From: Rhodoferax sp.
GTDB lineage: Bacteria; Pseudomonadota; Gammaproteobacteria; Burkholderiales; Burkholderiaceae_C
Reading direction: 5' to 3'
DNA length: 40,238 nucleotides
Assembly: GCA_013791765.1 (NCBI GenBank)
Contig: VMTC01000013.1
Span: 1-40,238 of the forward strand
Position numbers and translations under genes: made by a program. The notes below the pieces were generated by a model that saw nothing but the letters and a program-made list of their open reading frames with translations, was not told the origin of the DNA and made no database searches. Below are positions 26,444-37,939 of the stretch, piece by piece. Every line of letters begins with the position of its first letter. Position 1 is the first letter of the stretch.

Positions 26444-26626
26444 TTTAACCGAGATTGTTCATGAGGGTTTGAGATGATGGCGAGTGGATTTGCGAGGCAG
26501 TTTGTGTGGCTGGGAGGCGTTCATAGCACCGCTATGGACACCGAGCAGACGCGCAAAATGACCGCAAAGCCGCCGCCAGCGCTCAAACAGGTACGAAGCA
26601 CCGCCTCATGGACAATCTCGGTTTAA
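26444..26626. repeat. 183-bp imperfect palindromic element
   Basis: The outer 23-bp arms (26444-26466 and 26604-26626) pair at 21 of 23 positions. Further internal segments (GTTTGAG/CTCAAAC, GCAAAT-like/TTTGCG-like) also pair, and the apex is CATAGC ACC GCTATG (26522-26536). The whole stretch between the lipoprotein gene and smpB can fold into a long interrupted hairpin; the right arm reaches the smpB stop codon. Confidence 0.75.
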
Positions 26627-27096
26627 CGGTGGTGGGTCTTCATCGCGCGCTCCACCTCGCGCTTGCCTTCGCGGTCCTTGATGGTGTCGCGCTTATCGTG
26701 CTCGGCCTTGCCCTTGGCCAGCGCGATTTCGCATTTGATCTTGCCGGCCTTCCAGTGCAGATTCAGCGGCACCAGGGTGTAGCCTTTTTGCTCAACCTTG
26801 CCAATTAAACGTTTGATTTCTTCCTTGTGCATCAAGAGCTTCTTGGTGCGCTGCTTGTCCGGGCTGATGTGGGTCGAGGCGGTGCCCAGCGGCTGAATCT
26901 GCACGCCAATGACAAACAGCTCGCCATTGCGAATGACCACGTAGCCGTCGGTAATCTGCACCTTGCCCTCGCGCAGCGACTTGACCTCCCAGCCCTCTAA
27001 CACCAGGCCGGCTTCAAAGCGCTCCTCGAAAAAATAGTTGTAGGCCGCCTTCTTGTTGTCGGCAATGCGGGAGGCGGTGTCAGGTTTCTTGGCCAT
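26623..27096 (-). CDS. smpB: SsrA-binding protein SmpB
   Basis: Partner of tmRNA in trans-translation: binds the tRNA-like part of SsrA and brings it to stalled ribosomes. The 157-aa protein contains the conserved [40 protein letters not shown] and [20 protein letters not shown] segments and ends with the basic tail needed on the ribosome. It follows mltB by 21 bp on the same strand. The stop codon lies in the right arm of the palindromic element. No tmRNA gene was seen in this window. Confidence 0.95.
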
Positions 27097-27117: not shown

Positions 27118-28305
27118 TCAGGGGCGGGCCATGGCTTGCGCCACTTCTTGGCCGAGTTCAATCACGGCCATCGCATAGTAGCTGCTCCAGTTGTAGCGCG
27201 TGATGGCATAGAAGTTGCCGGTTCCAGCCACGTAGCTGGGGGGCGCCTCGCCATTTTGCAACTCCACCAGTGCCAGCGGGCCGGGATGCTGCAAGGCGGC
27301 GCCATCGAGTACGGCGCCATGCGCCACAAACTGCTCGGCGCTGAAGGTGGGCAGGATATCGGGTGCCATGAGCGCCGGCAGGTTCAGCGTTGGGCTGTCA
27401 AAACGCACAGCGTAATGGGTCGGCAGGCCAGGTTGCCAGTTGAAGGCCTTGAAATAGTTGGCGACTGAACCAATGGCGTCGGCGGCGCTGTTGAACAAGT
27501 CCACCCGGTTGTCGCCGTCGAAGTCAATGGCGTACTTCACCCAGCTCGATGGCATGAATTGCGCCATGCCCATGGCCCCGGCAAAGCTGCCCAGCGGTGC
27601 CAGCGGGTCCACGCCCGTGCGGTGCGTCAAGCTCAAGAACTGCTCCAGTTCGGCCAGGAAGAACGCGCTGCGGGCGTCAGCGCGAGGGTGACTGGCCGGA
27701 AAGTCAAAAGCCAGCGTCGTCAACGCGTCGATAACCCGAAAGCTGCCCATTTGCTGGCCGTAGATCGTCTCCACCCCGATGATGCCGACGATGATCTCGG
27801 CGGGCACGCCGGTCTGTGCTTGCGCCCGCGCCAGCGTCTGCCGGTTGTCTTGCCAGAACTGGACGCCGGCCCGGATGCGCACCGGATCGATGAAGCGGCT
27901 GCGGTAAACCTGCCAGTTCTTGGGCGTTCCCGGTGGCGGTGGCTGGATGTATTTGGCCACTTGCGGCAAGTAGCGGGCCGCCCCAATGGCCTGGCGCACC
28001 CAGTCAGGCGGAAAATCGCGCCGGGCTGCGATGTCATCGGCCGCCAGCATGGCGTCAGTGCGCTGCGCGTAGATCGGCCCGGGTAGCGCAGGCTGCCTAT
28101 TGGGTGTCTGGCTCAGCGCCAGGCGGCGCTGGTGGACGGCCCGCTTCGATGGCTTGGTCTTGTGTGTCGATTTGACGAGTTTGGGCGTTGGCGCTGCGGC
28201 CAGGATGATCGCTTGAGAATTTGAGCCATTTAGGGCTCTGGCCCCCGTGGATAGGGCGTAAACAGCTATAAAAAATGTAGTGTAAAGAAGAAGCTTTGAA
28301 GTCAC
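27118..28305 (-). CDS. mltB: Lytic murein transglycosylase B
   Basis: Periplasmic enzyme that cuts the MurNAc-GlcNAc bond of peptidoglycan. The core has the catalytic glutamate in IIGVETIYGQQMG, plus FAGAMGMAQFMPSSW, DFDGDNRVDLF, the SVANYFKAFNWQPG segment and a final YNWSSYYAMAVIELGQ. The GTG at 28305, giving about 395 aa, is chosen because it overlaps the relic tgpA stop (GTGA) and starts VTSKLLLYTTFF, directly followed by a hydrophobic signal peptide; a GTG at 28359 would add 18 residues that are relic tgpA sequence. The signal peptide is itself encoded by interspersed repeat copy B. No good ribosome binding site is seen. Downstream it is coupled to smpB. Confidence 0.88.
   Translation of the reverse strand: MTSKLLLYTTFFIAVYALSTGARALNGSNSQAIILAAAPTPKLVKSTHKTKPSKRAVHQRRLALSQTPNRQPALPGPIYAQRTDAMLAADDIAARRDFPPDWVRQAIGAARYLPQVAKYIQPPPPGTPKNWQVYRSRFIDPVRIRAGVQFWQDNRQTLARAQAQTGVPAEIIVGIIGVETIYGQQMGSFRVIDALTTLAFDFPASHPRADARSAFFLAELEQFLSLTHRTGVDPLAPLGSFAGAMGMAQFMPSSWVKYAIDFDGDNRVDLFNSAADAIGSVANYFKAFNWQPGLPTHYAVRFDSPTLNLPALMAPDILPTFSAEQFVAHGAVLDGAALQHPGPLALVELQNGEAPPSYVAGTGNFYAITRYNWSSYYAMAVIELGQEVAQAMARP
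28232..28282 (+). repeat. Interspersed repeat, copy B, in the mltB signal peptide
   Basis: Contains AGGGCTCTGGCCCCCGTGGA, TAGGGC and CAGCTATAAAAAATGTAG, matching copies A, C, D and E. On the minus strand it encodes FFIAVYALSTGARAL, the hydrophobic core and likely cleavage region of the MltB signal peptide. Confidence 0.7.
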
Positions 28306-28342
28306 GTGAGCCAGTGCAGTAGTTTGAGTTCGCGTTCCAGTG
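28293..28342 (-). pseudogene. Relic of the tgpA C-terminus beside mltB
   Basis: This 50-bp stretch matches the true 3' end of tgpA (35909-35958) at 42 of 50 positions and keeps the ending LERELKLLHWLT then TGA, against LQREFKRLHWPR then TGA in the intact gene. An in-frame TGA lies 14 codons upstream, so it is not a working gene. It shows that a tgpA copy once stood directly upstream of mltB. Confidence 0.75.
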
Positions 28343-28903
28343 TAGCGAGGTGTGATCACTGCACCTGGCGCGAGCGGTGGTTCAAAAAACGACGCTCAAA
28401 TTTCACCGGATCGATGGAGCGATGCCACGGGTTCACGGCTCAGTTCGCGAGCGCCAGCAAGCTGTGCTGCAAGGGCCAAGCGTTGGTGCATCCGACGCGC
28501 GCGAGCGGTAGAGTCTCCCTCAAAAAACGCCTCGCTGCCGGAGTTGGCCGCTTATCTTAAGTCCTACTCCCGCGCTAGGGATGCTCTGCATAACTCTGGC
28601 GAGGATGTGGTAGTGCGGATCGGGATGGGATACAAAGGCGCTTTTTGCAGCCAATAGCCGTCTCTATTGGCAAGAAAAGCAACGCAGTAGACCGCCCGAG
28701 GCCGTGCTGCCACAGACCGCAGGGAGTTATGCAGAGCGTCCCTTGGGTGGCCTCCATCAATCTCTGCGACCGCGCAAACTCAGACGGAATGTCTGTGCGC
28801 TGTCAAACCAAGGTGTGCGTTCGGCACCGCACAGACGCTTCTGGGGCGGCTGCGTATGCTCGATCTCTCAAGCCTTTCACGGACCAAACCCAGGAAAAAC
28901 ACC
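28306..28903. other. Gene-poor stretch with relics
   Basis: No convincing gene. It holds the tgpA relic (to 28342), a MITE-like inverted-repeat element (28579-28741) and a short hairpin. A minus-strand frame from about 28555 to 28395 (contains ARARRMHQRLALAAQL) has no clear start and might be more diverged tgpA-tail sequence; I could not prove this. Confidence 0.5.
28579..28741. mobile_element. MITE-like element or internally deleted IS remnant
   Basis: 19-bp terminal inverted repeats (GGATGCTCTGCATAACTCT left; right arm reads GGACGCTCTGCATAACTCC on the other strand) agree at 17 of 19 positions. They bound 163 bp with no coding capacity. Flanks are CTAG and CTTG, similar to the 4-bp YTAR duplications of IS5-type transposons. 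An internal 8-bp hairpin (28650-28671) lies near the middle. Confidence 0.6.
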
Positions 28904-29047
28904 ATGAACATTGAAATGCCATCACCTTCACCAGAACCGATGCCGCCTGTGCCGATGCCACCATCGCCCATGCCGCCGCCACAACAGGCACCGTTTCCCT
29001 CGCCACCGCCTTCACCATTGCCCACGCCGCTGCCGATGAAGGTCTGA
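28904..29047 (+). CDS. Small proline/methionine-rich protein, unknown
   Basis: A 47-codon ORF starting MNIEMPSPSPEPMPPVPMPP and ending LPTPLPMKV: about half the residues are proline, with regular PMPP, PSPEP and PPPSP units. AGGA lies 8 nt before the ATG, a good ribosome binding site. It ends 27 bp before the cardiolipin-synthase relic on the same strand, so the two would be cotranscribed. The Pro-rich composition suggests an extended, disordered peptide. I do not recognise a family; the ORF could also be a fortuitous frame in repetitive sequence, though the placement of the binding site argues for translation. Confidence 0.5.
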   Translation: MNIEMPSPSPEPMPPVPMPPSPMPPPQQAPFPSPPPSPLPTPLPMKV

Positions 29048-29074
29048 GTGGTGCGATGACCGACTGAGAACACC

Positions 29075-29712
29075 ATGCCTGACTTTCCGCGTTGGGTTTT
29101 TGTTGTGGCGGGCGTGACCAGCCTCGCACTGATCGCCGGGCTGCTGATGTCGAATTTCAGCGGCGGAGAAACAAAAATTGAGCGTCGCATCGAACGCCTT
29201 TATGCGCTCGATGATCCACGCTTCACGAACGAACTGGGCGTGCTGCTGGGCCCGCCGTTTCTGACCGGAAACAAAATCAGTGCGCTGTTGAATGGCGACG
29301 AAATTTTTCCCCCAATGCTCGCGGCCATCCGCGGCGCAAAGGTGTCCATCACCTTCGAGACCTACATCTATTGGTCAGGCGACATCGGTCAGGCGTTCGC
29401 CGATGCCCTGTCCGAGCGGGCGCGCCAGGGCGTGAAGGTCCATGTGCTGCTCGATTGGGTCGGGAGCGCCAAGATGGAAGACAGCATGCTCGCCGCCATG
29501 CGGGATGCAGGCGTGCAGGTGCGCAAGTTTCATCCGCCGCACTGGTCCCATCTGGGGCGCTTGAACAACCGGACCCACCGCAAGTTGCTGGTGGTTGACG
29601 GACGCATCGGATTCACGGGCGGCGTGGGCGTCGCGCCGCAGTGGACCGGTCGCGCTCAAAACCCGGCGCACTAGCGCGACACGCATTTTCAGGTTGAGGG
29701 CCACCCTCCCTA
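29075..29712 (+). pseudogene. Cardiolipin synthase / phospholipase D family, truncated
   Basis: The first 199 codons encode an N-terminal TM helix (about 8-26) and the first PLD domain of a Cls-type phosphatidyltransferase, with ITFETYIYWSGDIGQAFADA and an intact HKD motif, H168-x-K170-x4-D175 in THRKLLVVDGRIGF. Then TAG (29672-29674) stands where a tryptophan codon (TGG) is expected: after it the frame continues as RDTHFQVEG, exactly the family sequence, before losing similarity at about 29700 and stopping at 29712. The second HKD domain is absent, so the gene is both nonsense-mutated and 3'-deleted. Intact members make cardiolipin at the inner membrane. Confidence 0.8.
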
Positions 29713-29852
29713 TCGGGAGCCGCAAGAGCCGCATTGATGTTCAATGTGGCAGTATAAGGAGGGGCGCCAGTGCTGACAAATACATTTGACACAGCATGTT
29801 GATGCGGGCTTTCAGCGCGATCAGGCCCGCAAAAAAAGGAAAGCCATTCTTT

Positions 29853-31187
29853 CTAGCTCGAGTCAAGCTGTTTCTTTCTTGTCAGCGTCAATTTCGCCTC
29901 CAGTCCACCCTCGGGTCGCTGAAGCAACTCGAACGAACCGCCGAAGCGCTCGGCAATCGCTGCCACGATGGACAAGCCCAGTCCGCTGCCCCGACCTGAT
30001 CCGCGTCGCCAGAAACGTTGCGTGGCTAGCACCAACTCCTTATCGCTGAGACCCGGCCCGCGATCGAGAACGTGGAACCTTATCGTTTCCGGCGAGCGGC
30101 GTATCTCCAGCCTGATGCTGTTTTCTGCGGGGGAGTGACGCAAGGCGTTATCAAGCAGATTACGCAGTGCGGTGACTGCCAGCGCTTGGGGCAGTGAAAG
30201 TTCGGCACGGTTGCCATCGCTGTCCAACACGATGCGCTCAGTCGCGTCGGGTGCCGCGTCGCGTATCGCGAGGCGGGCTACTTCGTTGGCCTCTGCGACG
30301 CGCCCGTCATCCCAGGAAAAGTCGCCCTCTACTTGTGACAGCGTCAACAACTGCGAGAGCGAGTGCTGCAACCGCGCCACGCCTTCTTCTGCGTAATCCA
30401 TGGCCACAACGGCCTCCTGGGCGTGCGTGATGCGGGCGACCTGAAGATGGATCTTGATGGCGGTGAGGGGTGTGCGCAACTCATGGGCCGCATCGCTGGT
30501 AAAGCGACGTTCGCGGCTGAATGTCTCGCTCACCCGCGCCAGCAAATGATTCAGGGTGTTGACCAAGGGCCGCAAGTCGCGCGATATGGGCGCATTTTCA
30601 ATCGGGGTCAAGGAATCTGGCGTGCGGCTGGCCAGGACCTGGCGCAGGCGCTCCAGTGGTCGCAACCCACTGCCTACACCGAACCACAGCACCAGCAGGC
30701 TGCCCAGCAGGGCGACGACAAAGGGTACGACAGCGGCCACCATGACATTGCGCAACAGTGTGCTGCGCTCGCTCAGACGATCTGACGTAGTAACGCGCAA
30801 ACCCAGTTTATCCAGGGTGTAGCTGCGCCAGTCTTCACCCTTGATGTTTCGATCAGAAAACCCCGGCGTGGCGAGGTCAATGGCCTGCGGTGCCGCGCCT
30901 GGCGTGCGCGCAATGACCTCGCCGCGCAGCGAGACCTGACACGCCAAACCTTTCACCGTCTCCGGCATGCTCAAGGTGGAGACGCCGGCTTTGCCGCTGC
31001 TGCCATCCCACGCAGCCGGGTTCTGCGACATCAGTCCGGCCACCATATGGGCTGACATTTCAAGGCGCTGATCCAGGGTGCGCTGCATTTCCTGCTCCAG
31101 GCCGTGCAGCATCCAGATCGCGACCCCACCCCAGAGCAGCAGCATCGACACGCCGATCATCAGCAGCAAGCGCACGCGAAGTGTCAT
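29853..31187 (-). CDS. Sensor histidine kinase (DsbS/QseC-like)
   Basis: Membrane sensor kinase of 444 aa: TM1 (about 7-27), a periplasmic sensor of ~120 residues (28-~148), TM2 (about 149-170), a HAMP-like linker, a DHp domain with phospho-acceptor H235 in SDAAHELRTPLTAIK, and an ATPase domain with LRNLLDNALRHSP, DRGPGLSD and GRGSGLGLSIVAAIAE. The start is the ATG at 31187, sharing ATGA with the regulator's stop; an ATG at 31205 overlaps more. The sensor domain holds a single cysteine, C83 (GLACQVSLRGE). In Pseudomonas aeruginosa, as I recall, the orthologous kinase DsbS binds Cu(I) through one cysteine at nearly this position and lies beside dsbDEG; the same order here makes a copper or thiol-stress signal plausible. 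Confidence 0.85.
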   Translation of the reverse strand: MTLRVRLLLMIGVSMLLLWGGVAIWMLHGLEQEMQRTLDQRLEMSAHMVAGLMSQNPAAWDGSSGKAGVSTLSMPETVKGLACQVSLRGEVIARTPGAAPQAIDLATPGFSDRNIKGEDWRSYTLDKLGLRVTTSDRLSERSTLLRNVMVAAVVPFVVALLGSLLVLWFGVGSGLRPLERLRQVLASRTPDSLTPIENAPISRDLRPLVNTLNHLLARVSETFSRERRFTSDAAHELRTPLTAIKIHLQVARITHAQEAVVAMDYAEEGVARLQHSLSQLLTLSQVEGDFSWDDGRVAEANEVARLAIRDAAPDATERIVLDSDGNRAELSLPQALAVTALRNLLDNALRHSPAENSIRLEIRRSPETIRFHVLDRGPGLSDKELVLATQRFWRRGSGRGSGLGLSIVAAIAERFGGSFELLQRPEGGLEAKLTLTRKKQLDSS

Positions 31188-31849
31188 GCGCTCACCATGC
31201 TGCATCGGTAGCCCACCCCACGTACCGTTTCGATCACATCGGCCCCCAGTTTGCGCCGTATGTGATGGATATGCACGTTGAGGGCATTGCTTTCGATTTC
31301 TTCACTGAAATCGTAAAGGCTGTCTTTGAGCTGATCGGGGCTCAGGATGCGGCCACGCGCCTGCAGCAGGGCAACCAGCAGCGCCAGTTCGCGCCGTGAC
31401 AAATCGATGGGCCGTCCGTGCAAAAAGACTTCACCCCTGGCCGGGTCAAGGCGCAACGGGCCGTGCTCAATGACATCAACACTGCGGCCAGCGGCGCGGC
31501 GCAGCAAGGCATGCAGTCGGGCCACCAGTTCGTCCAGATCGAAGGGCTTGAGAAGATAGTCGTCGGCGCCGGCACGCAAGCCGGCAACGCGGTCTTGCAC
31601 GGCGTCGCGGGCGCTCAAGATCAGCACCGGCAGCGCCATGTCGCGCGCCCGCAAGCGTCCCAACAAACGCATACCGTCCTCGTCGGGCAAGCCGAGGTCA
31701 AGGATCACCACATCACAATGCACCGCCGACAACGTGGCTTCGGCCTGCGCCGCAGTGTGCACAGCATCGACCGTCAGGCCGTGCGCGCGCAATCCGACCA
31801 GGATGCCGTGAGCAATCAGTTCATCGTCTTCAATCAGTAAAACGCGCAT
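31184..31849 (-). CDS. OmpR/PhoB-family response regulator (DsbR-like)
   Basis: Two-domain response regulator of 221 aa. The receiver domain (1-~118) has the acidic pocket EDD (7-9), phospho-acceptor D51 in VVILDLGLPDEDG, S79 and K101 (LLKPFDLDEL). The C-terminal winged helix (about 125-221) ends SNALNVHIHHIRRKLGADVIETVRGVGYRC-like sequence, typical of QseB/PmrA-type regulators (motif spread over ~188-217). It overlaps the kinase gene by ATGA. Direct repeats and TTAA-type half sites lie in the 204-bp leader, possible autoregulatory sites. With dsbD-tlpA-dsbG directly upstream on the same strand, it most likely controls those genes. Confidence 0.88.
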   Translation of the reverse strand: MRVLLIEDDELIAHGILVGLRAHGLTVDAVHTAAQAEATLSAVHCDVVILDLGLPDEDGMRLLGRLRARDMALPVLILSARDAVQDRVAGLRAGADDYLLKPFDLDELVARLHALLRRAAGRSVDVIEHGPLRLDPARGEVFLHGRPIDLSRRELALLVALLQARGRILSPDQLKDSLYDFSEEIESNALNVHIHHIRRKLGADVIETVRGVGYRCSMVSA

Positions 31850-31860
31850 AGTGGTTCTGC

Positions 31861-32006
31861 AAGTTGCCGCATCACGTGCAAACGAGGCTTGCTCAACGGC
31901 AGGCGAAGTCGCCGCATGAATAATCGCACCAAAGAATGCGGCGAGGCAATGCGGAAGTGGCAGCGCAACCGTTGGGTCGCGCTGGATTAAATAAGTTCCA
32001 ACTAAT
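31861..32006 (-). promoter_or_regulatory. Leader of the response regulator with repeated motifs
   Basis: The 204 bp between dsbG and the regulator hold AAGTTGCCGCAT (31861-31872) and AAGTCGCCGCAT (31906-31917), 45 bp apart, and an inverted partner ATGCGGCGAGG (31936-31946). Farther up, on the minus strand, ATTAG-N6-CTTAT then TTAAT (32006-31986) gives TTA half sites 11 bp apart, as in QseB/PmrA-type boxes. These are candidate regulator sites only. Confidence 0.4.
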
Positions 32007-32053
32007 GTTCAATCTCCAGAAAGTACCGACGTCAGGGCTTTGCTGGCCGTGCC

Positions 32054-32821
32054 TCAGCGCGGACCCATGATTTTGACCAGCATCTCCGGCGGTGGCGCAC
32101 CCTGCATCTTTTGCAGATTGCCGCTGGCCTCCTTGTAGAAGATCGTGGGGGTAGCCGAGGCGCCGAGTTGCTGCATTAATTTGTAGTTGGCGTCGAGCTG
32201 AGCACGTATTTTTTCCGACACCTGGCCCAGGGGCTTGACGCCACCACTGGCGTGCTGCTGTTCGTGCTGGGTCAGGGCGGCTTGCGCATCCTGTGCCGAG
32301 AGCAGGGCTGCGGCTTTGCCCGCGCTGGTGTCTCTCAGGATGGCCACGATGACGTGGCGCAACTGTACTTTGCCGGCACTGACCCAGGGCCGGGCATCAT
32401 TCCAGAATTTGTTGCAGTAAGGGCAATTCGGGTCGGTAAAAGTGTAGATGACGCGCGGTGCTGTCTTACTGCCATCTGCAATCCAGGTGCTGCTCTCAAG
32501 CTGTTTCCAGATCTTCCCGGTCATGGGTTTGCTGACCAGTTTGTCCAGCGGCTCCTGGCTCAGGTTGGCCCCTTTGGCGTCCATCATTGGGCCGACTATG
32601 GCTTGTTTGCCGTCGGCGGTGAGATAGATGGACAGCGGCTGCTGGTCGACGATGCCTGCATAGCCGGTCAGTCCGCCTGGCGCGGCAAAAGTCCCGATCA
32701 CCTCAACGCCCTGCGCTTCGAGCGCCTTGATTGGTGCGGGCCAGTCTTTCGCCTGCGCCGCCAGCGTGAGGCCGAGCCATGTGAACAGAACTGCAAACGC
32801 AGCGAGTGATTTCTTAAGCAT
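32054..32821 (-). CDS. dsbG: Thiol:disulfide isomerase/chaperone DsbG
   Basis: Periplasmic V-shaped dimeric isomerase that repairs wrong disulfides and reduces sulfenylated cysteines. The 255 aa start with a signal peptide (MLKKSLAAFAVLFTWLGLTL, cleavage near AQA-KDW), followed by the dimerisation domain (~27-85) and a thioredoxin-fold domain with the active site CPYC (133-136) in FTDPNCPYCNKFW, ARPWVSAGKVQLRHVIVAIL, and the cis-proline segment ASATPTIFY. FWNDARPWVSAGKVQLR resembles DsbG rather than DsbC. AGGAG before the ATG overlaps the stop of the upstream gene (13-bp gap), so dsbD, the TlpA-type gene and dsbG are one operon. Its reducing power should come from DsbD. Confidence 0.92.
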   Translation of the reverse strand: MLKKSLAAFAVLFTWLGLTLAAQAKDWPAPIKALEAQGVEVIGTFAAPGGLTGYAGIVDQQPLSIYLTADGKQAIVGPMMDAKGANLSQEPLDKLVSKPMTGKIWKQLESSTWIADGSKTAPRVIYTFTDPNCPYCNKFWNDARPWVSAGKVQLRHVIVAILRDTSAGKAAALLSAQDAQAALTQHEQQHASGGVKPLGQVSEKIRAQLDANYKLMQQLGASATPTIFYKEASGNLQKMQGAPPPEMLVKIMGPR

Positions 32822-32834
32822 GGGGGATTTACTC

Positions 32835-33656
32835 CTAATTTGAGAGATTTGAGGGCGAACGGAACTGGTCTAATTTGCTCGCCAGCGAGGCGGCCGATAG
32901 GGGGCCCAAATGGGTATCTACTAGCCGCCCGCTGGCGTTGTAGAAAAGGGTGGTTGGCAACGCCCCGGAGCCAACTTCGCGGCCAAGGGCGGTGCCGGGG
33001 TCGATCACCACGTTGGCGAGATCAAGTCCGGCGCCAGTGAGATAGCGCTGGACCGTCGCTGCATCCTCGCCCTGGTTGACAAAGACAAAGCGCACTGCGG
33101 TTTCCTGCTTTTGCGCGGCGGCGAGCACCGGCATTTCACGCCGGCAAGGGGGGCACCAACTGGCCCACAAATTGACAACCATGGGCTTTCCCTGTGCCAA
33201 CGCGGCAAGGTTCGTTGGCTCACCCGCCAGCGTCGTCACAGAGGCTTGGGGCACAGTCGTCTTGTCCATCAGGCGTATTGCGCCAAACAGCCCTCCCCAG
33301 GCGAGCGCCCCAGCCGCCAGGCCGAAGGCCAGTGGTCTGCGCAACGCCGGGCGGCGCCAGGCCCGCCAGAATGCCACCAGCAGAGCCGCCATCATCCCGG
33401 CCCAGGGTGTAAACCCGCCGTCGCGGATATCAAGCATGGACCAGGGTGCGTTGCGGTAAGTGTCATACCAGATGGAAACAAAAGCGATGCGCGCCACCAG
33501 TACAGCGGCGACCAACATATCGATCGCGATATTGCCGACGCCGATCCGCTGACTACCTCCGACCAGGCGGCCTACGCCCGCCGCAACCAGCAAAGCCACC
33601 AGCAACAAAAGAAAAGTGATTGGCAAGGGGAGGGGGCCGATATTAAATGTCAGCAT
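32835..33656 (-). CDS. TlpA/DsbE-like membrane thioredoxin with N-terminal TM domain
   Basis: A 273-aa protein with an unusual N-terminal membrane part (about 12-130, four hydrophobic stretches; LPITFLLLLVALLVAAGVGR is the first) and a C-terminal periplasmic TlpA/ResA-type thioredoxin domain (~137-265), active site WCPPC (167-171) in NLWASWCPPCRREMPVL and cis-proline region SGALPTTLFYN. The TM part loosely recalls prolipoprotein diacylglyceryl transferase-like membrane domains and is found in TlpA proteins beside DsbD. It starts 2 bp after the dsbD stop with AGAAAGG upstream, so translation is coupled. It probably receives electrons from DsbD and reduces specific periplasmic thiols; the target is unknown. 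Confidence 0.85.
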   Translation of the reverse strand: MLTFNIGPLPLPITFLLLLVALLVAAGVGRLVGGSQRIGVGNIAIDMLVAAVLVARIAFVSIWYDTYRNAPWSMLDIRDGGFTPWAGMMAALLVAFWRAWRRPALRRPLAFGLAAGALAWGGLFGAIRLMDKTTVPQASVTTLAGEPTNLAALAQGKPMVVNLWASWCPPCRREMPVLAAAQKQETAVRFVFVNQGEDAATVQRYLTGAGLDLANVVIDPGTALGREVGSGALPTTLFYNASGRLVDTHLGPLSAASLASKLDQFRSPSNLSN

Positions 33657-33658
33657 GC

Positions 33659-35446
33659 TCAGCCTTTCTCTCTTGCACGCGCCACACGGGCGAGAAATTC
33701 GTCGGCACTGAGTTCGCCGATGATGCGTTCGCCGCGGCGCTCTTTGCCATCGGGACCGACTAACAGCATAGTGGGCGGACCAAGAATCTGGTGGGTGCGC
33801 ATCAGGGCCTGGTCATCGGCATTGTTGGCGGTGACGTCCGGGCGCAGCAGTTGCATGTCGTTCAAGGCCTGCTGCACGCGCGGGTCGCCAAACACCTCGC
33901 GTTCGATCACGCCGCACGACACGCACCAGTCGGCGTAGAAATCCACCAGCGTCCACTGGCCGCGCTGGCCCGCTGCGCCAGCCAGCACCTCAAGCGCTTG
34001 CGGTGTCTTGACCGGTCCGAAGCGGCTCATGAAATTATTCGTGACGGAAGCAGGCGCGAGCGGGCTGGCACTGGCGCCAATGTTCAGCGGCTGCAGCGGG
34101 TCATGGGCGCCACCGGCCGCACCGATTACCATGGAGCCGCCCCACAGGCCCAGCAGCAATGCCAGAAAGCGCGAGACTAAGCGGCCCCTGTCGGTACCGA
34201 GCTTGTGCACCAGTGACAGCAAACTGAGGGCGATGGCCAGCAACCAGGCGCCCCACAGGCCCAGCGTCAGTGCCGCAGGCAAGACACGCGCCACAAAAAA
34301 GATGCCGGTGCCCAACAGGATAAATCCGAACAATGCCTTGACCCGGTTCATCCAGTCACCGGGGCGCGGCAACAGCCGGGCTCCGAGGGTTCCGACCAGC
34401 AGCAGTGGCACCCCCATGCCCAGCCCCATGGCGAACAAGACCAGGGCGCCGGTCAGCACATCGCCGGTATTGCCGATGTAAAGCAGGGCGCCGGCCAGTG
34501 GCGCGGTCATGCACGGGCCAACCAGCAGCGCAGACAGCACTCCCATCGTCGCAGCACCTGTCATGGTGCCGCCGCGCTGCCCCTGGCTGGCGTCGTTCAC
34601 GCGGTTGCGCAGCACGGCCGGCAGTTGCAGTTCATAGAAACCAAACATGGACAGTGCAAGCACGACAAATAGCAGCCCGAAGCTGCCGAGCACCCAGGGG
34701 TTTTGTAATACGGCTTGCAGATTGGCGCCTGCCAGCGCCGCCGCCGCGCCAACTCCGGCATAAACAAGCGCCATCGGCAGCACAAAAGCCAACGACAGCA
34801 CAAAGCCGCGCTTGGCACTCGCGCCGCTACCCGCGACCAGGCTGGAGAGAATCGGCACCATCGGCAAGACACAGGGTGTGAACGTCATCAGCAAGCCCAA
34901 TCCGAAGAACACCAGCAGCATCCAGCCCAGGTTCAGGCGTGACAGGCGGTCGGCCAGGTCCTGATCCGCGCCGAGTGCGCCCGATGCAGTCCTACTCAGG
35001 CTGGCAGCCGCCACGGCCGGGCTGGCAGACTGTGCTGCGGCGACATCGGCCAAATTCACGCGTCGGGTTTGCGGCGGGTAGCAAAGACCCGCATCGGCAC
35101 AACCCTGCCAGCCAATCGTCAGTGCCTGGGCATCAGGTGCCACCAGTGAGGCTGTTACCTGGTCGTGGTAGACCTCGCTTTCGCCGTAGGTCTCATCGGT
35201 CTTGAGGGTGCCAGCTGGCCACTGAACCTTGAGCGCACTTCCGACGGGGTCCACTTTGACCTTCATCTGCTGGCGATAGAGGTAATAGCCCTGGCTGATG
35301 TCCCAGTTCAGGCGCAGCTGACCATCGGCCTGCTTGCTGACGTTCAGGCGAAAAGCCTGTTCCGGTTGCAAAAAATCTTGCTGTGCTTGCGCCGGCAGTG
35401 CCCACGACACTGCCAACAACACGACCAACCATAACAAACGCAGCAT
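33659..35446 (-). CDS. dsbD: Thiol:disulfide interchange protein DsbD
   Basis: Inner-membrane reductase that carries electrons from cytoplasmic thioredoxin to periplasmic DsbC/DsbG and TlpA-type proteins. With the ATG at 35446 it has 595 aa and a signal peptide (MLRLLWLVVLLAVSWALPAQ). All three modules are present: alpha domain with GCADAGLCYPP (C116, C122), the eight-TM beta domain with MTFTPCVLPMVP (C192) and VGPCMTAPLAGAL, and the gamma thioredoxin domain with YADWCVSCG (C508, C511). AGGA lies 6 nt before this ATG; upstream ATGs at 35485 and 35482 would bury the signal peptide. First gene of the dsbD-tlpA-dsbG operon. Confidence 0.93.
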   Translation of the reverse strand: MLRLLWLVVLLAVSWALPAQAQQDFLQPEQAFRLNVSKQADGQLRLNWDISQGYYLYRQQMKVKVDPVGSALKVQWPAGTLKTDETYGESEVYHDQVTASLVAPDAQALTIGWQGCADAGLCYPPQTRRVNLADVAAAQSASPAVAAASLSRTASGALGADQDLADRLSRLNLGWMLLVFFGLGLLMTFTPCVLPMVPILSSLVAGSGASAKRGFVLSLAFVLPMALVYAGVGAAAALAGANLQAVLQNPWVLGSFGLLFVVLALSMFGFYELQLPAVLRNRVNDASQGQRGGTMTGAATMGVLSALLVGPCMTAPLAGALLYIGNTGDVLTGALVLFAMGLGMGVPLLLVGTLGARLLPRPGDWMNRVKALFGFILLGTGIFFVARVLPAALTLGLWGAWLLAIALSLLSLVHKLGTDRGRLVSRFLALLLGLWGGSMVIGAAGGAHDPLQPLNIGASASPLAPASVTNNFMSRFGPVKTPQALEVLAGAAGQRGQWTLVDFYADWCVSCGVIEREVFGDPRVQQALNDMQLLRPDVTANNADDQALMRTHQILGPPTMLLVGPDGKERRGERIIGELSADEFLARVARAREKG

Positions 35447-35496
35447 CAGTGTTCCTATACCTAGATCAAATGGAACACGCATCATTGCGTGGTCGG

Positions 35497-35513
35497 ATTA
35501 AGGCTGCGTTAAC
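35497..35513. promoter_or_regulatory. Candidate operator upstream of dsbD
   Basis: ATTAAG-N5-GTTAAC has two TTAA half sites at an 11-bp repeat, as in boxes of PmrA/QseB-type regulators, about 50-67 bp before the dsbD start codon. A similar 11-bp-spaced pattern lies in the leader of the adjacent response regulator (31986-32006), which suggests both are its sites. Confidence 0.4.
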
Positions 35514-35854
35514 AGAAAAAAATACATGCGACGAGTCGGCCTTCTGTATCTGTCCCGGCCTATGAGCACCATAGTTCCGACTTTTCAACACCAAGCGCCA
35601 ACTCTGAGTTACCCAGTTAGGAGCACCTTGCTGGCCGCCACGGAAGACTGTTGAATGTGCGAGCACAAGTTTGAAATTGAATATTTAGGACGTCGGTGGG
35701 CTACGCCCGTTCGCCGCGTTGCGGGTGCAGGCCGCTTGCCACAGCAGCTCATCACAATCTCCAGTCCGCCCCGTTTTTGCTTTGCCAGCGGCAGTTTGAA
35801 CCTGCATTTAAAAAGTGCGTTGATCATCAAACTTGAGCATAAATTTGACTGATA

Positions 35855-35908
35855 TTGGCTCTAGCCCCTGTAGATAGGGCTTAATGTGCTCTCAAAAATG
35901 CAGTAATG
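35855..35908 (+). repeat. Interspersed repeat, copy C, after tgpA
   Basis: Contains TTGGCTCTAGCCCCTGTAGA, TAGGGC and CTCAAAAATGCAGTA. Together with the following 50 bp it forms a direct repeat with 28232-28342, spanning the former tgpA/mltB junction. Confidence 0.7.
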
Positions 35909-35917
35909 GCTTTGACG

Positions 35918-37939
35918 TCACCGGGGCCAGTGCAGCCGTTTGAATTCGCGTTGCAGTGGTGCCAGACCGCTGTGCTGCGCTGCGGGCGGTGCGTAGCGCA
36001 GTGCTTCCAGGCGCAACAGCCAGTCGCCGATGCCTTGGGCTGCCGGATGGGCGGGGCCGAGCTGGGCGCGCAGCTGCTCGGCCATGCGCCGCGGCGGGCT
36101 GTTTGGGGATAATTTGATGCCCGCTTGTTGCAGTCGCTTGGAAGCCCTTGCCAGCAGCCGCAGCCATGGGTCGTGGCGGGTGCGCTCCCACAGGGTCCAG
36201 GCCGTGCCTCCCAGGCTGGCCAGCACCACGATGCCGATCAGCAAGTAAATCAGGTCTTCCCAGCTTGGCGACGCAAAGCCCAGGTCTTTGAGCAGGTTGA
36301 GCTGCTTGCGCTGGGTGTAGTTCAGCACCGACTGGTTCCAGCGGTTGTTGACGGCGTCCCACACCGCGCGCAGGTTCAAGGCCAGCGCCGGGTTGACGTT
36401 GCCGAGCAAGGCCTCGGTGATGACGCCGCGCGGCGCCTGCAGGCGCTGCAGGCTGCCCACGCGCCCCGGTGCCACGGCGGCGGTGGGGTCCACACGCACC
36501 CAGCCGCGCCCGTTTAGCCAGACTTCGGTCCAGGCATGCGCGTCGCTTTGGCGCACAGTCCAGAAACCGTCGACGGAATTCTGCTCGCCGCCCTGGTAGC
36601 CGGTGACGACGCGTGCGGGCAGATCGAGAGCTCGCAGCAGGATGACGAAGCTCGATGCGATGTGTTCACAAAAGCCTTGCTTGCGGTCAAACCAGAACTC
36701 GTCAGCGCTGTCACGGCCATACACGCCGGGGTCCAGGGTGTAGACGTAGCCGCCCGTGCGCAGCCGCTCGAGCAGCGCCGCGACGAGCTCGGTGCCGTCG
36801 TCGCCCGCGTAGCGTGGGTCGCGCCGCAGCTCGGCGGCCAGTTGCAGCGTGCGCGGGTTGAAGCCGGTGGGCAGTGCCAGGTACTCCTGCAGACCCGCCA
36901 CCGGGCGCAACGGGCCGTGGCTGAAGTCGGAATAGCTGCGCGCGGTGTAGCGCACTAGGTCGGTGACCGGGCGATCTACCAGCCATTGCAGCTCGGCTGT
37001 CATGCGGGCCTCGAAGCCCTTCACCACAGGAGCCTCGGGCGTGGCGTCGAGCAGCAGCAGCCAGGGGCGTTGGTTCGGCTCCAGCGTCACCTGGTAGTTG
37101 ACCGGAGCACCGCGCACCTGCAGATTGGGCAGTGGCTGCATGCGCGCTGGCAGCCCGGAGCGCAGCGGCTGCCAGCTGCGCCCGTCAAAGCTGGAGAGTA
37201 CCGGCCCGCGAAAGTACAGATCCGATTGGCGCGGCGGCGTGCCCTCAAAACGGATGCGCATCGCCACGCTGTCATCGAGCGCCAGGCTGGCGATGGTGCC
37301 GACCTGCATCGTGGCCGACAGGCCGCTGCGTCCACTCATGGCGTCACTGGGCACCCCCCACAGCGGCGCCATGCGTGGAAACAACAAGAACAGAACCACC
37401 ATGATCGGTGCGCCCAGCAGGGTCATGGAGGCCGCCATGCGGGCCGACTGCAGCAAGGGCGGTCGGCCCACGGGCATGTGGGCATTGACCAGCGCCGTCA
37501 GCAGACCCAGCAGCGCGATCAGCATGGCGCCTGCGGTCAAGAGCGACTGCGAGAAGAAAAAGTTGCTCAGCATCATGAAGAAGCTCAGGAAAAACACCAC
37601 AAAGGCATCACGACGAGCGCGTAGCTCCAGCGTCTTCAGGGCCAACAGCACCATGATCAGGGTCAGGCCCGCGTCGCGCCCGAGCAGGGTCCTGTGGGTG
37701 AACAGCGTGGCGCCAATGGTCAGCACCAGCAGCACCCACAACCACCAGGGCGCAGGCAGTGGCCGAAGCGCCACGGCGAGCCAGCCGCGCCAGAGAATGA
37801 TCGCTGCGCTTAGCAGGCTGCACCACAGCGGCAAATGACTCACCTGTGGCAGCGCGACCCAGGCGATTACCCCCAACATGAACAAGGTGTCGCGGCTGTC
37901 GCGCGGCAGCAGGTACAGGCGATGCAGTGGGTTTAGCAT
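35918..37939 (-). CDS. tgpA: TgpA-like membrane transglutaminase (DUF3488)
   Basis: Membrane protein of 673 aa: six or seven N-terminal TM helices (about 15-190; DUF3488), a periplasmic transglutaminase-core domain (about 240-490), one TM helix near 550-570 and a C-terminal cytoplasmic tail. The catalytic triad is visible: C424 in KQGFCEHIASS, H468 in SDAHAWTEVW, and D484 in WVRVDPTAA. In P. aeruginosa TgpA is essential; the substrate is unknown. It is third in the moxR-DUF58-tgpA operon. Its last 14 codons and stop are duplicated at 28293-28342 beside mltB, which suggests mltB once followed directly (GTGA overlap is still visible after this gene's stop). Confidence 0.9.
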   Translation of the reverse strand: MLNPLHRLYLLPRDSRDTLFMLGVIAWVALPQVSHLPLWCSLLSAAIILWRGWLAVALRPLPAPWWLWVLLVLTIGATLFTHRTLLGRDAGLTLIMVLLALKTLELRARRDAFVVFFLSFFMMLSNFFFSQSLLTAGAMLIALLGLLTALVNAHMPVGRPPLLQSARMAASMTLLGAPIMVVLFLLFPRMAPLWGVPSDAMSGRSGLSATMQVGTIASLALDDSVAMRIRFEGTPPRQSDLYFRGPVLSSFDGRSWQPLRSGLPARMQPLPNLQVRGAPVNYQVTLEPNQRPWLLLLDATPEAPVVKGFEARMTAELQWLVDRPVTDLVRYTARSYSDFSHGPLRPVAGLQEYLALPTGFNPRTLQLAAELRRDPRYAGDDGTELVAALLERLRTGGYVYTLDPGVYGRDSADEFWFDRKQGFCEHIASSFVILLRALDLPARVVTGYQGGEQNSVDGFWTVRQSDAHAWTEVWLNGRGWVRVDPTAAVAPGRVGSLQRLQAPRGVITEALLGNVNPALALNLRAVWDAVNNRWNQSVLNYTQRKQLNLLKDLGFASPSWEDLIYLLIGIVVLASLGGTAWTLWERTRHDPWLRLLARASKRLQQAGIKLSPNSPPRRMAEQLRAQLGPAHPAAQGIGDWLLRLEALRYAPPAAQHSGLAPLQREFKRLHWPR

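Follow-up and report, generated by a model that had tools for sequence, protein, structure and literature searches.

A duplicated tgpA-mltB junction in Rhodoferax: a gene tail of probable dual use, probably copied by an insertion whose cargo was later replaced in each species

In a 40,238-nt stretch of a Rhodoferax sp. genome (hereafter the window), the end of tgpA and the start of mltB occur twice, about 7.5 kb apart. The reading we favour, with a probability of roughly 0.68, is that a dual-use tgpA tail was copied by an insertion, that its two roles were split between the copies, and that the cargo was then replaced in each species. In this genus the 3' end of tgpA would both encode the C-terminus (...LATLQREFKxL..) and carry the promoter and leader of mltB-smpB, a dual role that we infer, as to the promoter, from conservation at the DNA level. 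In the ancestor of four species, DNA would have entered the junction in such a way that the tgpA tail came to stand on either side of it, so that tgpA kept its protein end and mltB its promoter. Thereafter the TACACT site would have been lost from the tgpA-side copy, which continued to encode the protein end, and retained in the mltB-side copy, whose role as a protein end was no longer needed. The space between the copies would have become a tolerated landing zone. Its gene content would have been replaced in each species, probably through homologous exchange in the flanking DNA or through joining at short homologies, as the ORFs scanned show no recombinase. The features are listed in Table 1.

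Table 1 Features of the junction copies and of the cargo between them in the window.
Feature	Position	Strand	Basis or remark
smpB	26623..27096	-	Pfam SmpB; 21 bp downstream of mltB, same strand
mltB	27118..28305	-	Pfam SLT_2; 1188 nt; GTG start (28305-28303) overlaps stop of tgpA-tail copy
mltB-side tgpA-tail copy, probable mltB promoter/leader	28302..28350	-	alignments; conserved in four species
TACACT, candidate -10 element of mltB	28339..28344	-	pattern match 28322-28346; codon test
Two remnants of DUF748 gene and leader (28343-28427, 28432-28571)	28343..28571	.	match G047 cargo gene
MITE-like element	28573..28747	.	three further genome copies, 91-95%
Broken cls (PLD domain) with upstream part	28773..29703	+	Pfam; genome comparison
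dsbD-tlpA-dsbG-response regulator-histidine kinase unit	29776..35619	-	contiguous elsewhere in G047 (92% and 88%)
Decayed start of first mltB copy, beside tgpA	35855..35921	-	edge alignments
tgpA with complete C-terminus	35918..37939	-	Pfam TgpA_N, Transglut_core
ACCACT, equivalent of 28339-28344, lost in tgpA copy	35955..35960	-	pattern match 35938-35962

An earlier note on this DNA had described a direct repeat of the two edges, and local alignment bears it out: the tgpA-tail part is identical at 42 of 50 bases and scores 60. Compared with 4854 random window segments, this stretch reaches 25 at best, so the match is not due to chance. It is also independent of the interspersed repeat, which lies outside the tgpA-tail part. 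With up to 3 mismatches allowed, that repeat block forms a single pair within the window (28234-28256 and 35857-35879), and other members of its dispersed family lie elsewhere in the genome. Taken together, the edge alignment and the random-segment control rule out both a chance match and a match through the dispersed repeat only. The frames VTSKLLL and VTSKPLL follow the two stops as claimed. On the mltB side, tgpA-like sequence runs a few bases past the limit of 28342 given for it, to about 28350.

The gene order in relatives agrees with an insertion into an ancestral contiguous junction with a GTGA overlap, which is also supported by the alignments. Outside the clade of the window, mltB directly follows tgpA in 83 of the 86 distinct tgpA genes examined, and the insertion idea is therefore right. 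The same dsb block at the same place in relatives, an outcome that would have spoken against it, was not seen: in G047 the dsb block sits on another contig, and dsbD finds no match in G044 and only weak matches in G061.

These three genomes are the nearest relatives of the window's genome (G000). The four form one clade with 100/100 support, and each has an insertion at tgpA-mltB. Between the same core genes, as in a hotspot, gene content differs in the four genomes and also in G068 (R. ferrireducens OTU1). The four cargos are the dsb genes, DUF748 with carbonic anhydrase, umuC/cho/umuD-like genes, and a stretch of about 13.6 kb with a GGDEF gene at its end. The mltB-side tails agree in their left edge pair by pair, G044 with G061 and G000 with G047, and the clade's repeat extends into mltB. 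Since the mltB-side tail is common to four species with different cargos, it predates the dsb genes of the window, and so does the duplication. G047 still carries a DUF748 gene beside mltB. The DUF748 scraps beside mltB in the window match this cargo, which shows that the window's cargo was swapped.

In G044, the order is tgpA, about 600 bp of mltB, cargo, tgpA tail and full mltB. Its mltB remnant beside tgpA is 85.2% like its own mltB and 75-79% like those of others, a sign of gene conversion or of a second event. R. ferrireducens OTU1 carries a fresh 1.4-kb insert at the junction with a 64-bp repeat (61/64 identical), apparently independent of the clade's insertion, and the left edge of this repeat lies within a few bases of that in G044/G061. 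When 89 genomes across the genus were searched for the pattern with up to 2 mismatches, two matches within 20 kb were found only in G000, G044, G061 and G068; as chance matches occur at about the reversed-control rate, only match pairs and tgpA-tail positions were used. G021 also has an insertion at the junction, where a direct repeat was looked for and none was found. Insertions are seen in a fresh (G068), an intermediate (G044) and an old state (G000 and G047).

The codons of the tgpA tail speak for a second role. Contiguous relatives in the genus use rare codons that preserve TA(C/A)ACT, which stands 33 nt before mltB in the window. In non-clade tails matching the protein motif, the Thr codon is ACA in 38 of 41 (versus 7.9% of 3100 background Thr codons) and the Ala codon is GCT in 29 of 30 (versus 5.6% of 6896). 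Where the Ala is replaced in non-clade tails, Val is GTT (5/5), Thr is ACT (1/1) and Gly is GGT (2) or GGC (3); tails with Lys for Thr use AAA. That is, synonymous constraint preserves a DNA word across amino-acid changes, as would be the case for an intragenic promoter. Among the contiguous non-clade genes, 39 of 83 have the site, or 34 of 41 at 67% identity or more; it is lacking in the contiguous L045 and L057 and in many more distant relatives. In G014, most of mltB is gone and the site is lost as well (CACCTT).

After the duplication, TA(C/A)ACT is kept in the mltB-side copy in 4/4 species and lost from the tgpA-side copy in 4/4, while the tgpA-side copies retain a similar protein end. 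TANNCT is kept in 16 of 17 tails (contiguous, non-clade, tgpA protein identity at least 69.5%) versus none of the four clade tgpA-side copies (Fisher p 0.0008, kinship ignored), and the four losses, all in one clade, may be one relaxation. Over 39 aligned nt in the four species, the tgpA-side copies show 14 variable sites, 10 of them at third codon positions, versus 5 in the mltB-side copies, with one at a third position and none in the first 12. The mltB-side tail had been called a relic, but it does not look dead. As the word was kept on the mltB side and lost on the tgpA side, this tail is probably the mltB promoter, with TACACT as candidate -10 element.

It is, though, possible that the TACACT block is kept not as a -10 element but as a leader for the translation of mltB, as another site of protein binding or for an RNA feature, a reading to which we give somewhat under one chance in three. 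Around the site, conservation spans -5 to about +28 (in sequences picked by the hexamer, hence circular at its own positions), and codons are rich in A on the side of the mltB start. The site is -10-like only, with no conserved -35 hexamer to form a pair with it, and an E. coli-type scan found no promoter there. Against this, T1, A2, C5 and T6 of the site stay while position 3 varies, and the key positions of a -10 hexamer are T1, A2 and T6. In addition, the shortest mltB-side copies (G000/G047) have their upstream edge just before the site. Upstream of moxR, a TAACGT/TAAGGT-like box is present and TACACT is absent in 62 sequences, an outcome compatible with either view of the promoter.

As to how the junction was duplicated, the earlier note had put forward a diverged donor that brought the dsb block together with its own tgpA/mltB junction, and the 16% difference between the copies fits this. 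Of the two meanings then given to that difference, an old event stands and a donor copy does not: the mltB-side tail also occurs in species with other cargos and no dsb block at the site, and DUF748 remnants stand between the tail and the dsb block in the window. A donor origin of junction and dsb block is therefore rejected, with a very low residual probability. Unlikely, if less so, is an old integrative element at the tgpA 3' end which left an att-like repeat, whose integrase then disappeared and whose place was taken by other genes. The direct repeat does sit at a gene 3' end and restore the target gene (42/50 in the window, 61/64 in G068), with left edges within a few bases in G068 and G044/G061, and the tree needs three insertion-label changes, at least two of them forced by well-supported branches. 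But no integrase, transposase or relaxase domain was found by Pfam in the 6 window and 19 other cargo ORFs scanned, and no recombinase gene stands beside the repeat among the ORFs scanned. Even the fresh G068 insert has, as its two longest ORFs, only an HTH regulator and a small protein with no Pfam match, and the clade's repeat, running into mltB, exceeds the typical att core site, which is shorter. A Campbell-type single crossover of a circle carrying a tgpA tail and mltB front is a doubtful but better candidate. It predicts tgpA, truncated mltB, cargo, tgpA tail and mltB, the very layout of G044; yet a tandem duplication followed by deletion and insertion gives an equal layout, and the G044 mltB remnant looks young while the tail copy is old. 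It is possible that such an integration was the first step of the dual-use scenario rather than its opposite.

A wider extension of the dual-use scenario, which we hold tentatively and consider somewhat short of even odds, is that the junction is a recurrent, self-insulating landing site, where a copied dual-use stretch lets insertions persist and roles evolve apart. At least two such events would apparently have taken place, one in the four-species clade and one in R. ferrireducens OTU1, their left edges almost coinciding. Both roles would be freed each time to evolve apart, a regulatory subfunctionalisation in a bacterial chromosome.

Insertion-duplication (Campbell) integration is a known route, and the G044 layout of full gene, truncated downstream gene, cargo, gene tail and full downstream gene is alike, but the cargo ORFs scanned include no plasmid or replication gene. 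Promoters that lie within the end of an upstream gene are also of a known kind. The tgpA tail resembles them in having a promoter-like site in the coding end of the upstream gene, seen as synonymous constraint, and differs in that duplication would here have separated the coding and regulatory roles into two copies. Our literature search found no direct parallel to such a split and no paper naming both tgpA and mltB. For hotspots of horizontal gene transfer that lack mobility genes, recombination between homologous flanks has been proposed (Oliveira et al. 2017, PMC5635113). Like them, the present junction has variable cargo between core genes and turnover, with no mobility gene found among the ORFs scanned. 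Unlike them, its edges are a duplicated gene junction whose copies diverged in role, and our comparison is between species, with one genome each, and not between strains.

This case is a natural experiment on overlapping information in DNA, in which 40-odd bases are apparently under coding and regulatory constraint in relatives, and duplication separates the constraints so that each copy sheds the one no longer needed. It also offers a concrete example of cargo turnover in which no mobility gene came to light, with fresh, intermediate and old insertions that make the mechanism testable, and it suggests a reason why certain junctions can accept foreign DNA.

For the window's cargo, Pfam confirms the intervening genes as a cls fragment, a histidine kinase, a response regulator, DsbG, a TlpA-like protein and DsbD; the dsb-regulator-kinase unit is only one of several pieces between the junction copies. 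Scs-like or DsbD-DsbG-TlpA thiol-redox clusters are known, and the gene content of the cargo is like theirs, with DsbD and DsbG above the NCBIfam cut-offs. The kinase and regulator, in contrast, score under the cut-off in all 25 NCBIfam models listed for them, and the disulfide-stress role suggested for the cargo is putative. The GC comparison that the earlier note proposed sets the block apart at most slightly, below the tgpA side (block 0.56 to 0.64, mltB side 0.58-0.66, tgpA side 0.61-0.68). When the flanks of the G047 dsb unit were searched for, both were found in G044, on different contigs; G061 and G032 matched left-flank genes only, and the window's genome has a single left-flank gene (74%) and a piece of 133 bases.

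A second copy of the tgpA end, joined to the opening bases of mltB, lies directly before mltB, about 7.5 kb off. The two tgpA-tail copies are identical at 42/50 bases with an alignment score of 60, while the best score of this stretch against 4854 random window segments is 25. The duplicated tgpA/mltB junction claimed in the earlier note is thus real, and it is also old; its edges are of more interest than the cargo between them. The coordinates are collected in the table, where the names of the putative moxR and DUF58 genes are our assumption and not from a domain scan.

Features of the window and of the compared loci (G, genus genomes; L, fetched loci)
Feature	Position	Strand	Remark
moxR, DUF58, tgpA, dsbD, tlpA-like, dsbG, response regulator, histidine kinase (in this order)		-	
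ACCACT in the tgpA-side tail copy	35955-35960		
Broken cls	29075-29674	+	after histidine kinase; ends early after 199 codons, partial PLD domain; related to G047 and G078 sequences
MITE-like element	28573-28747		next after DUF748 remnants; three more genomic copies, 91-95%
DUF748 remnant, inner part	28432-28571		79% to G047 gene
DUF748 remnant, leader	28343-28427		76% to G047 gene
mltB-side tail copy	28302-28350		
TACACT	28339-28344	-	candidate -10 of mltB
mltB start region	28232-28300		member of a ~45 bp dispersed repeat family
mltB, smpB		-	after broken cls; 21 bp apart
mltB scrap, G014	L119:14055-14192		C-terminal, beside tgpA
Insertion, G021	L118:12984-15183		between tgpA and mltB
dsbD match, G047	L133:10772-12589		TAG stop near end (603-aa ORF)
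Insertion, Burkholderiales MAG	L059:2120-4100		between DUF58 and tgpA

We cut 90 distinct tgpA genes from the fetched loci (the 30 top matches from each genus search plus the top 80 from the collection scan, with the more distant genus genomes under-sampled), and 86 of them are outside the clade of the window. In 83 of these 86, mltB is directly downstream of tgpA, mostly overlapping it. The three exceptions are R. ferrireducens OTU1 (G068, 1.4-kb insert), G021 (1.9-kb insert), and G014, where most of mltB is gone. In G021 the tgpA tail is shorter, and no direct repeat was found around the insertion. Another insertion among the same genes, a regulator/kinase pair, was observed in one MAG.

In the contiguous relatives, the tgpA tail codes L-A-T-L using unusual codons. 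Thr is ACA in 38/41 non-clade tails that fit the protein motif (background 7.9% of 3100), and Ala is GCT in 29/30 (background 5.6% of 6896). Where other residues occupy the Ala position, the codons are GTT for Val (5/5), ACT for Thr (1/1), and GGT (2) or GGC (3) for Gly; tails with Thr replaced by Lys use AAA. Across these residue changes, the word TA(C/A)ACT thus persists in the DNA. In the window, the word ends 33 nt upstream of the mltB start codon. The form TANNCT is kept in 16/17 contiguous non-clade tails at tgpA identity of at least 69.5%, in 34/41 at 67% or more, and in 39/83 of all contiguous genes, those without it being mainly more distant relatives.

After the duplication, the two copies look to have parted, with the tgpA-side copy conserved as protein and the mltB-side copy as DNA. 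In the four clade genomes, where the tgpA-side copy does not adjoin a working mltB, its word reads ACCACT, GACGCT, GACACT, and CACCCT, i.e., it is kept in 0/4, and the protein end stays similar (LAPL, LVTL, LATL, and IATL). In the mltB-side copy, CTCGCTACACTG is kept in 4/4. Of 39 aligned bases, 14 are variable among the tgpA-side copies (10 third codon positions, 7 within the 12-base word) and 5 among the mltB-side copies (1 third position, none within the word). This speaks against the mltB-side copy being a dead relic, as had been supposed. The word is lost in G014 together with most of mltB, and is still in both copies of the young G068 case.

The likeliest reading is that the word would be a -10 promoter element of the mltB-smpB unit, since it keeps T1, A2, and T6, which matter most in a -10 hexamer, while position 3 is variable, and its distance from the start codon suits a short leader. 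Against this reading, no conserved -35 was found upstream of the word, an E. coli-type promoter scan found no promoter there, TACACT is absent from moxR upstream regions, and a word enrichment test gave no usable signal. The word may instead serve as a leader for translation or as a binding site of another kind.

Among 89 genus genomes, the nearest relatives of the window's genome (G000) are G047, G061, and G044 (tgpA protein 88–91%), and the four form one clade (support 100/100). All four carry an insertion between tgpA and mltB, with different content in each. G047 has a DUF748 protein, a carbonic anhydrase, and a 211-aa ORF without Pfam match; in G044, some 600 bp of a first mltB precede UmuC, Cho, and a UmuD-like peptidase. 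G061, assembled as two contigs, has about 13.6 kb encoding DUF6639, a LysR regulator, an F420-type oxidoreductase, a LigB-type dioxygenase, an esterase-like hydrolase, a potassium transporter, a two-component pair, a sodium/proton exchanger, and a GGDEF protein. Scans of 6 window cargo ORFs and 19 ORFs of the other cargos, a subset that lacks small ORFs and several others, revealed no mobility domain. Part of the G061 cargo is 90–92% identical to G064 against only 81% for tgpA, which suggests transfer of this part. The locus works like the gene-transfer hotspots of Oliveira et al. 2017 (PMC5635113), a study that proposes homologous recombination in the flanking DNA; our comparison is between species, and the definition of that paper is within-species. 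In the literature searched, we found no description of a hotspot edged by a duplicated dual-use junction whose roles are parted between the copies.

The mltB-side copies of the clade have CTCGCTACACTG...AAACTACTGCAC in common, which is absent from all four tgpA-side copies, and their left edges are paired, one common to G044/G061 and another to G000/G047. These shared features date the duplication most plausibly to an ancestor shared by all four species, earlier than their present cargos. The insertion into the tgpA-mltB junction proposed in the earlier note is right in outline, but a junction brought by a diverged donor is not supported on this evidence, since the mltB-side tails are common to four species with different cargos. 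The first mltB of G044 is 85.2% identical to its own second copy and 75–79% to mltB of the other species, so that gene conversion or a later event has to be assumed. The insertion in G068 appears to be independent and fresh: its repeat of 64 bases matches at 61/64, the first 55 being identical, and the left edge is nearly as in the clade, at a weakly supported tree position (81/42). Counting G021, the tree takes three changes of the insertion label, of which well-supported branches force at least two, with gain and loss not distinguishable. In a genus-wide pattern search of the 89 genomes, only G000, G044, G061, and G068 gave two matches within 20 kb; the tgpA-side copy of G047 has decayed beyond 2 mismatches.

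The window cargo itself is a mosaic. Two stretches match the leader and inner part of the G047 DUF748 gene, so the G000/G047 ancestor most likely had DUF748 adjoining mltB, most of it since lost in G000; the G061 DUF748 (88%) is at a different place. One MITE-like copy gives a further match to the opposite strand (71%), the pattern expected of a fold-back element. The dsbD-tlpA-dsbG-regulator-kinase unit is contiguous at another place of G047 (92% and 88%), where dsbD may end slightly early. The mltB start, a signal peptide as judged by eye, belongs to a repeat that also occurs at other G000 loci (L002-L005) and in G061 (L178); the dispersed repeat may have been recruited as the mltB signal peptide, or the reverse.
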